Assembly (NCBI GenBank): GCA_003132145.1
Contig: PKWU01000039.1
Location: forward strand, 16,593 to 80,592
DNA length: 64,000 nucleotides
Source: Granulicella sp.
GTDB taxonomy: Bacteria; Acidobacteriota; Terriglobia; Terriglobales; Acidobacteriaceae
Direction of reading: 5' to 3'
Shown: positions 8,272 through 62,769 of the stretch, in pieces
How the letters are laid out: the number at the start of each line of letters is the position of its first letter
Position numbering within the stretch: the stretch's first letter is position 1
Translations under genes and position numbers: made by a program
The notes under the pieces: model-generated
The model's database searches: none
What the model was told of the DNA's origin: nothing
The model's input: only the letters and a program-made list of their open reading frames with translations

Positions 8272-8339
8272 GCAAAAGAAGATGCGGAGATTCTTCCCCG
8301 TTCCCCTTCGACTTCGCTCAGGGTCAGGGTCAGAATGAC
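8272..8339 (-). repeat. TCATTCTG-type nested palindromic repeat carrying the CCCTGAGCGAAG core
   Basis: Read on the minus strand: GTCATTCTGA, a CCCTGAGCGAAGTCGAAGGG palindrome, then GAATCTCCGCATCTTCTTTTGC. The same order, TCATTCYG - inner palindrome - GAATCT - CTTTTGC, occurs at 22918, 36661 and 62651. The left end overlaps the last codons and the stop of queG. Confidence 0.75.
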
Positions 8340-9706
8340 AACTTACGGATCATCTGGCGCGCCCAGTCCGCTGCATCTGCAAGCACAGGGTCGTCGCCCG
8401 CGGCCCAGGTTTCGAGTTGTGGCAGAAAACGCGCTTCGCCGCTGTTGCCCATGGCGATGGCGACGTTGCGCAGCAGCCGCTTGCGGCCGGTGCGCTCCAG
8501 CGGAGAGCCTTTGAAGCTGCGCCTGAACTGGGGCGCGTCCATCGCGGCCAGCCAGTCCAGCGCAGGATGGATCAGTTCGGGCCGCGGTTGCATTGACTCC
8601 CACCCATTCCGCGCAGGACGTGGGATGGATGGGACACCCGTGCGAAGTGTCTCGCCGGGAGGATTGCCGGGAGCCTCATCAGACGGCTTGCTTTGCTGAT
8701 TGCGAAGCAGCTTGGAGTTCCACGGGCAGACGTCCTGGCAGATGTCGCAGCCGAAGACGTGGCGGCCCATCGGCGCGCGCAGACTAGGGTCGATTGCGCC
8801 CTTCTTCTCAATGGTGAGGTAGGCGATACAGCGCGAGGCATCCATCGTTCGCGAAGCATTGGGGGATTTCGAGCCAAGCAGCGCGCCGGTGGGACAGGCA
8901 TCGATGCAGCGAGTACAAGTTCCGCAACTGTCGTTAGATAATAGTGAAAATGAATGTATTACTGTAAGTTCATCGGGAGTTGATGCGGCGCGCGCACCGC
9001 CCACTTCCCTCGCCTGTTCCTTTTCGGCTTCGGTCAGCTCCACCGGAAGGTCTGTGACGACGACGGCGAGCAGGAGCCATGAGCCGAGCTGCTGGTTGAT
9101 GAGGCAGGTGTTCTTGCCGATCCAGCCGACGCCAGCCTCGGCGGCCAGAGTGCGCTCGACGAGCGGGCCGGTGTCTACATAGCAGCGGGTGGTGCAGGCG
9201 GCGCGCGCGAGCAGTCCCGCCTCGATCGCGCGCAGACGGGCGAGCAGCTCGTTGTGGTAGTCGGTTGGGGCCGAGGTTCCGTCGTTGAGCGTGCGGCCGC
9301 TCCATGCGTAGCGGGCGATCCAGCCCGATCCCGGGGGCGCGGGATCAATCGTGAGTGGAGTTGCGGCGCCCGGCGACTGGGCCAACTGATTCTGGCTACG
9401 CACAGACGGCGCGGCAAAGTTGTAATTCAGCGCGCAGACAATGGCCGAGCGCGCCCACGGCATTACCGCGCGCAGATTGCCGCGGATGAGGGTTCCCGAC
9501 TCGTCGCGGCGCTTGAGATAGTCCATCTCGCCGGCGTGGCCCGCGTCGATCCACGCGGAGAATCGCGCCGCCTCCTGCGTGGCGGCTGGGTCGTCCGACC
9601 CGCGGATCTCGGCGACACCACAGACGTCGAAGCCCGCGGCGCGCGAGGATTCATCGAGCCAGAGGCGCAGCTCCGTGTTCCATCGGGTTGATCTATTTGC
9701 GGTCAT
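8330..9706 (-). CDS. queG: Epoxyqueuosine reductase QueG
   Basis: The start at ATG 9706 (MTANRSTRWN) gives 458 residues. The track ORF starts further upstream in sequence that overlaps the next gene. QueG reduces epoxyqueuosine in tRNA to queuosine using cobalamin and two 4Fe-4S clusters. The ferredoxin-like cysteines are CGTCTRCIDACPTGAL and CDICQDVCPWN. YVDTGPLVERTLAAEAGVGWIGKNTCLI is the QueG core signature. The protein is longer than the usual 350-390 residues. One insertion (VPSIPRPARNGWES) is encoded by a palindromic repeat, and others lie around QSPGAATPLTIDPAPPGS and REVGGARAASTPDELTVIHS. The last three codons and the stop fall in another repeat. Confidence 0.92.
   Translation of the reverse strand: MTANRSTRWNTELRLWLDESSRAAGFDVCGVAEIRGSDDPAATQEAARFSAWIDAGHAGEMDYLKRRDESGTLIRGNLRAVMPWARSAIVCALNYNFAAPSVRSQNQLAQSPGAATPLTIDPAPPGSGWIARYAWSGRTLNDGTSAPTDYHNELLARLRAIEAGLLARAACTTRCYVDTGPLVERTLAAEAGVGWIGKNTCLINQQLGSWLLLAVVVTDLPVELTEAEKEQAREVGGARAASTPDELTVIHSFSLLSNDSCGTCTRCIDACPTGALLGSKSPNASRTMDASRCIAYLTIEKKGAIDPSLRAPMGRHVFGCDICQDVCPWNSKLLRNQQSKPSDEAPGNPPGETLRTGVPSIPRPARNGWESMQPRPELIHPALDWLAAMDAPQFRRSFKGSPLERTGRKRLLRNVAIAMGNSGEARFLPQLETWAAGDDPVLADAADWARQMIRKLSF
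8599..8639 (-). repeat. GGTGYCCCATCC...ATGGGTGGG palindromic repeat inside queG
   Basis: On the coding strand it runs GGGTGTCCCATCCATCCC, then a short centre, then GGAATGGGTGGG. The same ends flank the two insertions in the DegT gene at 56589 and 57330. It encodes about 14 residues (GVPSIPRPARNGWE) that interrupt an otherwise conserved region after the second cluster motif. Confidence 0.7.
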
Positions 9707-22881: not shown

Positions 22882-22888
22882 TCATTAC

Positions 22889-23013
22889 CGGCATTTTCGG
22901 AATTGATATAGACCAATTTTGTTTGTCATTCCGTACCCTGAGCGAAGTCGAAGGGGAAGGAATCTGCTTTTGCTTGCTCCACAATGCTCTGCACCATTAC
23001 CGAAAATGCTCTA
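22889..23013. repeat. MITE-like repeat with terminal inverted repeats and a nested TCATTCCG core
   Basis: The left end GGCATTTTCGGAATTGA and the right end CATTACCGAAAATGCTCT are imperfect inverted repeats. Inside lies the TCATTCCG - CCCTGAGCGAAGTCGAAGGG - GGAATCTGCTTTTGC unit. A sister element with the same ends but a different inner palindrome is at 62613. There is no ORF inside. It fills most of the gap between the glycosyltransferase and the TPR protein gene. Confidence 0.7.
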
Positions 23014-46987: not shown

Positions 46988-47422
46988 TTACGCGCTCTCG
47001 CCCTTGGCCGAGGCCAGCTTTTCTTCTGCCTGGCGTGTCATGGCGTTGGCGTAGTCGTACTTCGCGGCGTCGTCGCCTGCCTCCTGCCACATCTTCTCGC
47101 CCAGCGCCAGTTCCTGTTGGGCTTCGGCTGTGTCGATCTCGCTGGGAAGCACCGCCGTCTCGGCCAGAATCGTCACCCGCTCGGGAAGCACCTCGACGAA
47201 TCCCCACGCGACGAAGAACTTCTGGTCGCCCGAGGTGCCGCCGTGCAGCCGCACCTCGCCCGCGCCTAGCTCCGCCAGCAGCGGCGCAGCGCCGTACAGC
47301 GCCTCCAGATAGCCGGAGCTCGACGGCAGCTCCACCGACTCCGCCGTGGCGTCCAGCAGCAGCCGGTCCGGGCTCACCAGCCGTACCGCCAACAACCCCG
47401 AATTTGCAACCGCCTCAGCCAT
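46988..47422 (-). CDS. atpC: ATP synthase F1 epsilon subunit
   Basis: With ATG 47422 the product has 144 residues. The longer track start reads through a heptamer array. The beta-sandwich region reads LAVRLVSPDRLLLDATAESVELPSSSGYLEALYGAAPLLAELGAGEVRL, and the C-terminal helical hairpin AEAQQELALGEKMWQEAGDDAAKYDYANAMTRQAEEKL. It closes the F1 operon and regulates rotation of the gamma-epsilon-c rotor. 45 bp separate it from atpD. Confidence 0.9.
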   Translation of the reverse strand: MAEAVANSGLLAVRLVSPDRLLLDATAESVELPSSSGYLEALYGAAPLLAELGAGEVRLHGGTSGDQKFFVAWGFVEVLPERVTILAETAVLPSEIDTAEAQQELALGEKMWQEAGDDAAKYDYANAMTRQAEEKLASAKGESA

Positions 47423-47431
47423 CTCGTCCTT

Positions 47432-47466
47432 CAACTGACAACCTGCAACTGACAACCTGCAACTGT
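47432..47466 (-). repeat. Heptamer array (5 units) in the atpD-atpC spacer
   Basis: On the plus strand CAACTGA and CAACCTG alternate (CAACTGA CAACCTG CAACTGA CAACCTG CAACTGT). The array fills almost the whole gap between the atpD stop and the atpC start. An almost identical array follows hflX at 53936. Confidence 0.85.
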
Positions 47467-47467
47467 A

Positions 47468-48943
<1,476 letters not shown>

Positions 48944-53868: not shown

Positions 53869-53935
53869 AACCCCGCCCCCATACTTGCAACCACACCTTC
53901 GGGCCGTTTGCCCGCATCTCTCCGCTGGCTGCTTA

Positions 53936-53970
53936 CAACTCACAACCTGCAACGCACAACCTGCAACCGC
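53936..53970 (-). repeat. Heptamer array (5 units) right after the hflX stop
   Basis: On the plus strand CAACTCA CAACCTG CAACGCA CAACCTG CAACCGC. It ends one base from the hflX stop codon at 53972. The units match the atpD-atpC array. Confidence 0.85.
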
Positions 53971-56355: not shown

Positions 56356-57714
56356 ATGCTCGACTTCAGCCGCCAGTACGCCCCGCTACGGCAGGAGGTT
56401 CTCTCCGCCCTCACCGCCGTCTGCGACTCGCAGCACTTTATCCTCGGCCCCCAGGTCGCCGCATTCGAGAAGGCCGCAGCCGCGGCCTGTGCCGCTCGCC
56501 ACGCCATCGGCTGCGCCAGCGGCACAGACGCCCTCTGGCTCGCGCTCGCCGCCTGCGGCATCGGCGACAGTACTGCCAGCACTCGACTGGGTGCCCCATC
56601 CATCGCGGCGACCGGGGTCCCCGGCGAGCGGACTTTGCTCGCTGGGGTGACAGAGCTATGGGTGGGTTCCGACGCCGTCGTCACCACCCCCTTCAGCTTC
56701 TTCGCCACGGCCAGCTCCATCCTGCGCGCCGGAGCGCGTCCCCTCTTCGCAGACATCGACCCCCGCACCTTCAACCTCTCGCCGAACTCGGTCGCCGAAG
56801 TTCTCGCCAGCCCAGCAGGCAAGAACGTCAAAGCCGTCCTCCCCGTCCATCTCTACGGCCAGTGCGCCGATTGGGATGCCTTCGCCGCTCTCCAGCGCGA
56901 CCACCCCGGCCTGCTCCTCATCGAAGACGCGGCCCAGGCCTTCGGAGCGTCGTGGACTACGCCCGGCCAGCCAGCAGGCCGTCCCGCTGGCTCTCTCGGC
57001 GACGCCGCAGCCTTCAGCTTCTACCCCACAAAAAATCTCGCCGCCATGGGAGACGCGGGCCTCGTCACCACCTCCAGCACCGTGATCGACCGCCGCGCCC
57101 GCTCTCTGCGCGCCCACGGAATGACTCGCCGCTACTTCCACGACGAGGTCGGCTGCAACTCCCGCATGGACGACCTGCAGGCCGCCGTCCTCAACGTCAA
57201 GCTCCGCCACATCGACGAGTGGAACCAGCAGCGCCGCACCCGCGCCGCCCGCTACGACCAGCTCTTCCGCGAAGCCAACCTCGCCGTCGAATGGTCCCCC
57301 CCCGAAGCGCTTCACTCAAACAAAGAGTCGGGTGCCCCATCCATCGCAGCAACATCGCGATGGGTGGGATCAGCAGCCACAATCCCATCCGCAGTCACAC
57401 CCTCCACCAAAGACGGCGTCGTTCTCCCCTACACCGACCCGCGCGCCACGCCGGTCTTCCACCAATACGTCATCCGCGCCCCGCGCCGCGACGCTCTGCG
57501 TGCCCGCCTCACCGCGCAGCAGATCGGCAGCGAGATCTACTACCCGGTCCCCATCCACCTACAGGCCGCGCTGCGCGACCTCGGCCACAAGCCGGGAGAC
57601 TTCCCCCAAGCCGAGCGCGCCGCTGCCGAAGTCCTCGCCCTTCCCCTCTACCCCGAACTGCGCGACGACGAGCAGCAAACCGTAGTCGCCGCCATCCGCA
57701 CCTTCTACGCCTGA
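56356..57714 (+). CDS. DegT/DnrJ/EryC1/StrS family aminotransferase with two repeat-encoded insertions
   Basis: The start is placed at ATG 56356 (MLDFSRQYAPLRQEV), matching the family's usual beginning and giving 452 residues. ATG 56284 is an alternative. PLP-dependent sugar aminotransferase: HFILGPQVAAFEKAAAAACAARHAIGCASGTDALWLAL, VTTPFSFFATASSIL, VLPVHLYGQCADWD, LLIEDAAQAFGA, and the lysine in SFYPTKNLAAMGDAGLV. Two insertions break otherwise aligned sequence: about 26 residues after GIGDST (LGAPSIAATGVPGERTLLAG...) and about 40 after WSPPEAL (GAPSIAATSRWVGSAAT). Both are encoded by palindromic repeats. It probably makes an amino sugar for a surface glycan. Confidence 0.88.
   Translation: MLDFSRQYAPLRQEVLSALTAVCDSQHFILGPQVAAFEKAAAAACAARHAIGCASGTDALWLALAACGIGDSTASTRLGAPSIAATGVPGERTLLAGVTELWVGSDAVVTTPFSFFATASSILRAGARPLFADIDPRTFNLSPNSVAEVLASPAGKNVKAVLPVHLYGQCADWDAFAALQRDHPGLLLIEDAAQAFGASWTTPGQPAGRPAGSLGDAAAFSFYPTKNLAAMGDAGLVTTSSTVIDRRARSLRAHGMTRRYFHDEVGCNSRMDDLQAAVLNVKLRHIDEWNQQRRTRAARYDQLFREANLAVEWSPPEALHSNKESGAPSIAATSRWVGSAATIPSAVTPSTKDGVVLPYTDPRATPVFHQYVIRAPRRDALRARLTAQQIGSEIYYPVPIHLQAALRDLGHKPGDFPQAERAAAEVLALPLYPELRDDEQQTVVAAIRTFYA
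56589..56666 (+). repeat. Nested palindromic repeat inside the DegT gene (78 bp)
   Basis: The left arm GGGTGCCCCATCCATCGC and the right arm CTATGGGTGGG enclose a second palindrome (GTCCCCGGCGAGCG...TTTGCTCGCTGGGGTG, 56616-56649). The inner one is nearly identical to 62671-62705. 78 bp is 26 codons, so the frame is kept. Confidence 0.85.
57330..57368 (+). repeat. Simple palindromic repeat inside the DegT gene (39 bp)
   Basis: GGGTGCCCCATCCATCGCAG, a short centre, then CGCGATGGGTGGG. This is the outer frame of the copy at 56589 without the inner palindrome. 39 bp is 13 codons. It encodes GAPSIAATSRWVG. Confidence 0.85.
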
Positions 57715-62582: not shown

Positions 62583-62612
62583 TCACCTCGATTTCGTCTT
62601 TGCTGTTCCCCT

Positions 62613-62769
62613 AGAGCATTTTCACTATTGCTATAGAGAGACAAGAATTGTCATTCCGCAGCGCATCCGCGGTCCCCGGCGAGCGATCTTTGCTCGCTGG
62701 GGTGGAGCAGCGGAGGAATCTGCTTTTGCTCGCACTGTGAGACTCCACACCATTACTGAAAACGCTCTA
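62613..62769. repeat. MITE-like repeat with nested TCATTCCG frame and inner palindrome
   Basis: The ends AGAGCATTTTCACTATTG and CCATTACTGAAAACGCTCT are inverted repeats (about 15 of 18 match). Inside are GTCATTCCG, the inner palindrome GTCCCCGGCGAGCG...GCTCGCTGGGG (62671-62705), and GGAATCTGCTTTTGCTCGC. The ends match the element at 22889, while the inner palindrome matches the DegT insertion. It lies between DUF2203 and katG. Confidence 0.75.

Follow-up and report, generated by a model that had tools for sequence, protein, structure and literature searches.

Two short elements of the window (the whole stretch of 64,000 nucleotides of a Granulicella contig that was analysed) have the same outer ends and the same inner frame, and each carries a different palindrome in its centre. 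How could different cores come into one frame? The source genome is a draft metagenome-assembled genome (MAG) of a peat-bog Granulicella (3.17 Mb, 89 contigs). We consider it probable that these elements are nested mobile palindromes, in which an IS630-type MITE (module O) contains a REP-like palindrome (M) that contains C1 or C2, and that they came about through insertion, spread as a unit and exchange of cores.

Composite elements of the window

Four modules were defined: M is GTCATTCYG...RGAATC, C1 is TCCGGGGTCCCCGGCGAGC...GCTCGCTGGGGTGG, C2 is CCCTGAGCGAAGTCGAAGGG, and O comprises the outer arms. Nesting is written with square brackets. The window contained the following features.

62612..62769 (+): composite O[M[C1]], element 2, 158 bp, three nested palindromes
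62612-62613: TA, presumed IS630-type target duplication of element 2
62612..62636 (+): left arm of O, TAGAGCATTTTCACTATTGCTATAG, 22/25 identical to one end of the IS630-family element of genome G008 (L322)
62745..62769 (-): right arm of O, TAGAGCGTTTTCAGTAATGGTGTGG
62649..62729 (+): M module of element 2, TGTCATTCCG...GGAATCTGCTTTTGC, CGTC-REP-like, C1 at its apex
62666..62706 (+): C1 palindrome TCCGCGGTCCCCGGCGAGC..GCTCGCTGGGGTGGA of element 2, GCA on both sides (62663-62665 and 62707-62709)
about 22886..23013 (+): composite O[M[C2]], element 1, left arm degenerate, right arm intact (23002-23013)
22924..22973 (+): M module of element 1
22936..22955 (+): C2 core CCCTGAGCGAAGTCGAAGGG of element 1
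8272..8341 (-): third copy, M-like TTGTCATTCTG..AAGAATC..CTTTTGC with C2 core, without O arms

A preliminary description of this DNA had begun the two elements at 22889 and 62613 and had given them shared terminal inverted repeats, one frame and two different cores. Both elements are real, with the cores described (C2 and C1, respectively), and the three nested levels correspond to O, M and C1; the third copy was missed. The starts move slightly, to about 22886 and to 62612. Element 2 reads TA-GAGCATTTTC...GAAAACGCTC-TA. In element 1 the exact terminal repeat TAGAGCATTTTC is present at the right end only (minus strand, 23002-23013), the left end being degenerate (TACCGGCATTTTC, about 22886-22898) and the 25-nt arms 76% complementary. 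Both elements carry the exact frame GTCATTCCG / GGAATCTGCTTTTGC, element 1 at 22925-22933 / 22959-22973 and element 2 at 62650-62658 / 62715-62729. Because the right halves show 79% identity over 57 nt, chance similarity of the two elements is excluded.

Folded as single-stranded DNA, element 2 was better than 200 of 200 shuffles (z -4.1), and element 1 folded more weakly (z -2.0). The Rfam search gave two tRNAs and nothing else. Element 2 could not be polarised at its own locus (62612), where the intergenic DNA could not be aligned with G008, G021 and others.

Modules in the genome

The census was based on pattern searches of the genome and of an 860 kb sample of stretches. M frames of the form GTCATTCYG-N(2-32)-RGAATC occurred 205 times in the genome, and the reversed control pattern gave none. 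Far from being limited to two copies, each module has dozens of copies genome-wide, and about 25 O elements were found in the sequence examined. The most over-represented 12-mers of the 860 kb sample include those of M and of another palindrome family, N (GGGTGCCCCAT...). The cores held by the M frame are GCGAAGC, AGCGCAGCG, CAGCGCAGCGG, C2 variants and C1. In the named collection, the M/C1 junction pattern matched only the Granulicella sp. MAGs bog_404 and bog_405. The bog_405 record agrees with the source genome at 100% over 2,488 bp, so that the window most likely comes from bog_405. Of 149 Acidobacteriota genomes searched, 90 contained matches to the M-frame pattern; their numbers varied widely, and many of the single matches look unrelated.

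M has a CGTC or TGTC tag followed by a stem beginning with AT (TGTCATTCCG / CGTCATTCTGG). Read by eye, the stem ATTCTGGC-GAA-GCCAGAAT has 8 bp and a 3-nt loop, and the CCG form has mismatches. The tails are CTG, CTC or CCC, not the 3-nt CCA type of the CGTC-REPs, so we term M CGTC-REP-like and not a member. Tandem half units TTTGTTTGTCATTCCGCAGCCCC precede a complete M hairpin in L212, L214, L216 and L226, and their number differs between species (L263 compared with L227). The preliminary description had overlooked that M is a REP-like palindrome of a kind other than O, that O is an IS630-type MITE, and that there are in-frame copies in genes.

Transposases and the outer module

The O elements are 112-158 bp long without an ORF, and 19 of 24 listed elements are bounded by TA..TA. 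Their interiors are M with a short core (about 13), M[C2] (five), M[C1] (one) or P (five or six). P is a GTGGTTTTCCTCAAGAAAACCAC-like hairpin unrelated to M, an alternative interior of O.

L193:16379, L194:8069, L197:15554, L213:9763, L214:2152, L216:4823: O arms with central hairpin P

As the interior can be a form of M or the unrelated P, the O frame exchanges its interior too.

The preliminary description had proposed a search for a transposase with matching ends, and one was found. Among 31 related genomes searched for IS630-type (DDE_3) transposases, G008 contained a transposon of 1030 bp (L322) with ends TAGAGCATATTTCTTATTGGTATATAG and TAGAGCATTTTCCTTTTTGCTATAG (that is, TAGAGCATTTTC...TATAG), whose protein belongs to the IS630 family (NF033545, E 2e-39). 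O matches this transposon at both ends: TAGAGCATTTTCCTTTTTGCTATAG shares 22 of 25 bases with the O arm, and both ends begin with TAGAGCAT. The element of G005 (L337) likewise has TAGAGC ends. DDE_3 matches were long in G008 and G005, and weak and partial in the draft source genome, where fragments and no complete IS630 copy were found; this counts against the explanation we prefer.

Two sites without O keep one TA: CTTC-TA-TCGAGG in G021 (C56 locus) and GTT-TA-TTTTTT in bog_404 (C88 locus). The left TA of O at C56 has decayed to CA in the source genome and TG in bog_404, which counts against the preferred explanation. Judging from its ends and target sites, O is a MITE of an IS630-family (Tc1/mariner-type) transposon.

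No transposase was linked to M, C1 or C2, a further point against the preferred explanation. The genome has two RAYT genes (NF047646), and a RAYT search in viral contigs gave no match. The C16 gene (E 4e-33) is flanked by inverted N, which is also dispersed, and the region (C16:1-1500, L094) is a probable REPtron or TIRtron; the other gene, on contig C2, is flanked by GGGGCGCGGCTTTAGCCGCGCC / GGCGGGGCTGAAGCCCCGCC. N begins with GGGTGCCCCA and has no GTAG/GTGG tag at the hairpin foot, and is closer to the TIR class of RAYT-associated repeats. Since none of O, M and C1 flanks either gene, we rejected the idea that a RAYT mobilises them.

Different cores at orthologous sites

As close relative we used bog_404 (G041), with roughly 84-93% identity in aligned blocks; all loci compared come from MAGs. 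At C22:6104, M is missing in G008 and present in the source genome, and bog_404 carries M[C1]. Here bog_404 contains exactly 44 bp more than the source genome, with GCA duplicated. At C56:4393, where the flanks of the two genomes are nearly identical, the source genome has O[M], bog_404 has O[M[C2]] and a tandem half unit, and G021 has no O. The core change consists of about 8 nt replaced by about 21 nt. This is a replacement and not a clean insertion, and recombination or template switching between copies therefore probably acts too. Two genes gave similar results. In one site of a peptidase-like gene, bog_404 has M and the source genome has an N-type palindrome; in carB, an M-type palindrome of the source genome stands against two half units and M[C1] of bog_404, all in frame.

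Contig C2, from about 21876 (L093), and L097: carB gene with differing in-frame palindromes at the same place in both species

These core changes are our strongest results. They support the core swapping within one frame that had been proposed for the window, without relying on likeness between separate loci.

Could the step at C22 be a loss? M[C1] would then be ancestral, and C1 would have been precisely removed in the source genome by slippage between the GCA repeats. A 44 bp difference bounded by such repeats, with a hairpin within, is a classic slippage context. However, loss leaves the entry of C1 into M and into other families unexplained, and G008, without M altogether, cannot polarise the step. 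We regard loss as rather unlikely; C1 would more probably have been inserted at C22.

Assembly artefacts of repeats in metagenome bins might also produce different cores, as we compared two draft MAGs in which some contigs break off within O elements. The compared loci, however, are internal to their contigs and collinear on either side, a typical read is longer than an element, and the coding insertions keep the frame. Such an origin is extremely improbable.

Palindromes inside genes

The window also contains palindromes within a coding sequence.

56589..56666 (+): N[C1], with N = GGGTGCCCCATCCATCGCGG..ATGGGTGGG and C1 at its apex, in frame in a DegT-family aminotransferase gene (PF01041), absent in G008 and G021
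56612..56649 (+): C1 within this N
57330..57368 (+): second N, without C1, in frame in the same gene, common to G008 and G021, absent in the other aligned orthologues

In prmC, C1 flanked by GACGC adds APGSPASGLGSLGWD ahead of the NPPY motif. This copy is common to the source genome and G008, and is absent in G021 and the other aligned genus members, which have a clean empty site. Through a codon-usage scan of the 860 kb sample, 16 in-frame open sites were called and 13 judged genuine; four others were out of frame or had a stop. Three C1 matches of the in-gene list (L198, L221 and L226:9022) were judged to be chance. By the in-frame copies, mobile palindromic DNA turns into protein sequence in conserved enzymes of this Acidobacteriota lineage.

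The prmC site bears on the question whether the inner palindromes are mobile at all. They might have grown in place through quasi-palindrome-templated mutation; hairpins promote templated changes, and the middle of C2 is similar to the short core GTAGCGAAGCGG. The clean empty site in relatives contradicts this for C1, though not for C2, and C1 is near-identical when alone and in unrelated hosts. Growth in place is thus very unlikely, and mobile units remain the better reading.

Insertion contexts of C1

In two genomes, C1 was found within several kinds of M, N, N', Q (CCTGGGGC..GCCCCAGG), R (GGGCACGCGT..ACGCGTGCC), heptamer arrays and tandem C1 arrays, and also at unique sites. The earlier proposal that small palindromes are inserted into one another is borne out by this range of hosts. 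A repeat 11-mer adjoins C1 in 11 of 19 independent contexts of the source genome, compared with 2.2% of random positions; part of this excess is expected, since repeats are denser in intergenic than in coding DNA.

C1 stood between direct repeats of 3 bp or more in 14 of 25 contexts, where shuffled pairings gave 8.0 (P 0.007). The signal is moderate as a possible trace of target duplication, many contexts having no repeat. A constant 5 bp duplication, suggested by prmC, fails across sites, and about 3 bp fits moderately better.

All M[C1] copies have one common junction. The composite therefore spread as a unit and counts as one insertion, and targeting of the hairpin tip is not deducible from these copies. 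It is doubtful, and offered as a suggestion, that C1 might be a transposase-less element of about 40 bp which favours the tips of other hairpins (and in-frame gene sites), makes a short target duplication and uses hairpin-forming single-stranded DNA as its target. If so, palindromes would be landing pads for palindromes.

At L083, L236 and L245, C1 forms tandem arrays of two or three copies, which are linked by short repeats such as GCAT or GGAAT. Heptamer-like tandem arrays (CAACCTG, GTTCCCT, AACCTCG), some containing C1, are located at 47418-47477 and 53922-53967 of the window and at L025 and L231.

Origin of the nested forms

In the explanation we prefer, O would be moved in trans by an IS630 transposase to TA target sites, carrying M, which would in turn carry C1 or C2 at its tip. 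The inner palindromes would have entered by insertion into existing palindromes, C1 probably with a short duplication (about 3 bp), and each composite may then have spread as one unit. Cores could be exchanged between copies through short-homology recombination or template switching at hairpins, as may have happened at C56.

The main competitor, to which we give somewhat less than an even chance, places most of the change in the last of these steps: C1 and C2 would have entered M once or a few times, and for the most part the core differences would have arisen among dispersed M copies with shared arms, by recombination, gene conversion or template switching during replication. The single M[C1] junction and the core that is replaced, not interrupted, at C56 agree with this, and the tandem half units TTTGTTTGTCATTCCGCAGCCCC beside M suggest slippage at hairpins. 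Yet the shared arms are merely about 12-20 nt, and the host-specific junctions of C1 in several kinds of M, in N, N', Q and R and in heptamer arrays need several separate insertions. The preliminary description had named two sources of swapping, insertion of palindromes into one another and recombination between them. Each of these is supported, and either may lie behind a given swap.

Since close relatives show unoccupied, singly occupied and doubly occupied states of one site, insertion, loss and core exchange should be datable and separable with a few isolate genomes, which bears on how REP-like palindromes spread without a dedicated transposase.

Comparison with known repeat systems

We found no description in the literature of a three-level modular assembly with intermediate states in Acidobacteriota. 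Like IS630-family MITEs, O is short, has no ORF, has imperfect terminal inverted repeats matching an IS630 element of the genus, and has TA at its site. Unlike in them, the interior of O is either M or P, palindromes unrelated to each other, and not a relic of an IS deletion, and the M inside it bears further palindromes.

The small dispersed repeats of cyanobacteria, which Elhai reportedly described in 2008, are said to be very small mobile repeats too; they are likened here by description, not by sequence. The REPs and TIRs of RAYT genes (REPtrons, TIRtrons) resemble the inverted palindromes that flank both RAYT genes, N at one of them, but N has no GTAG tag, and M, C1 and O lie beside neither gene.

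The CGTC-REP superfamily, which includes the rickettsial RPE-4 and RPE-6, has an 8-9 bp stem, a 4-5 nt loop and a 3-nt tail that is mostly CCA, with no transposase known (Di Nocera 2013, PMC3733652). M is alike in its (C/T)GTC tag, the AT start of its stem, its intragenic copies and the absence of a linked transposase. It differs in that Acidobacteriota are outside the five phyla listed, its main tails are not CCA, and its cores are exchangeable and may carry C1 or C2.

REPs nested in other palindromes are known from T. roseum, H. neapolitanus and A. variabilis, with two levels and one fixed pairing (PMC3733652). Here too a small palindrome lies within a larger one, but the nesting reaches three levels, one insert can have several hosts, and orthologous loci are seen both occupied and unoccupied. 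The copies in genes have known precedents in intragenic REPs and in the rickettsial palindromic elements (PMC3733652; PMC10969869), and the likeness to the Rickettsia elements is in the placement of palindromes in frame in unrelated genes. Taken together, the parts of this modular nested system resemble known kinds, namely IS630 MITEs, REPs and rickettsial palindromic elements.
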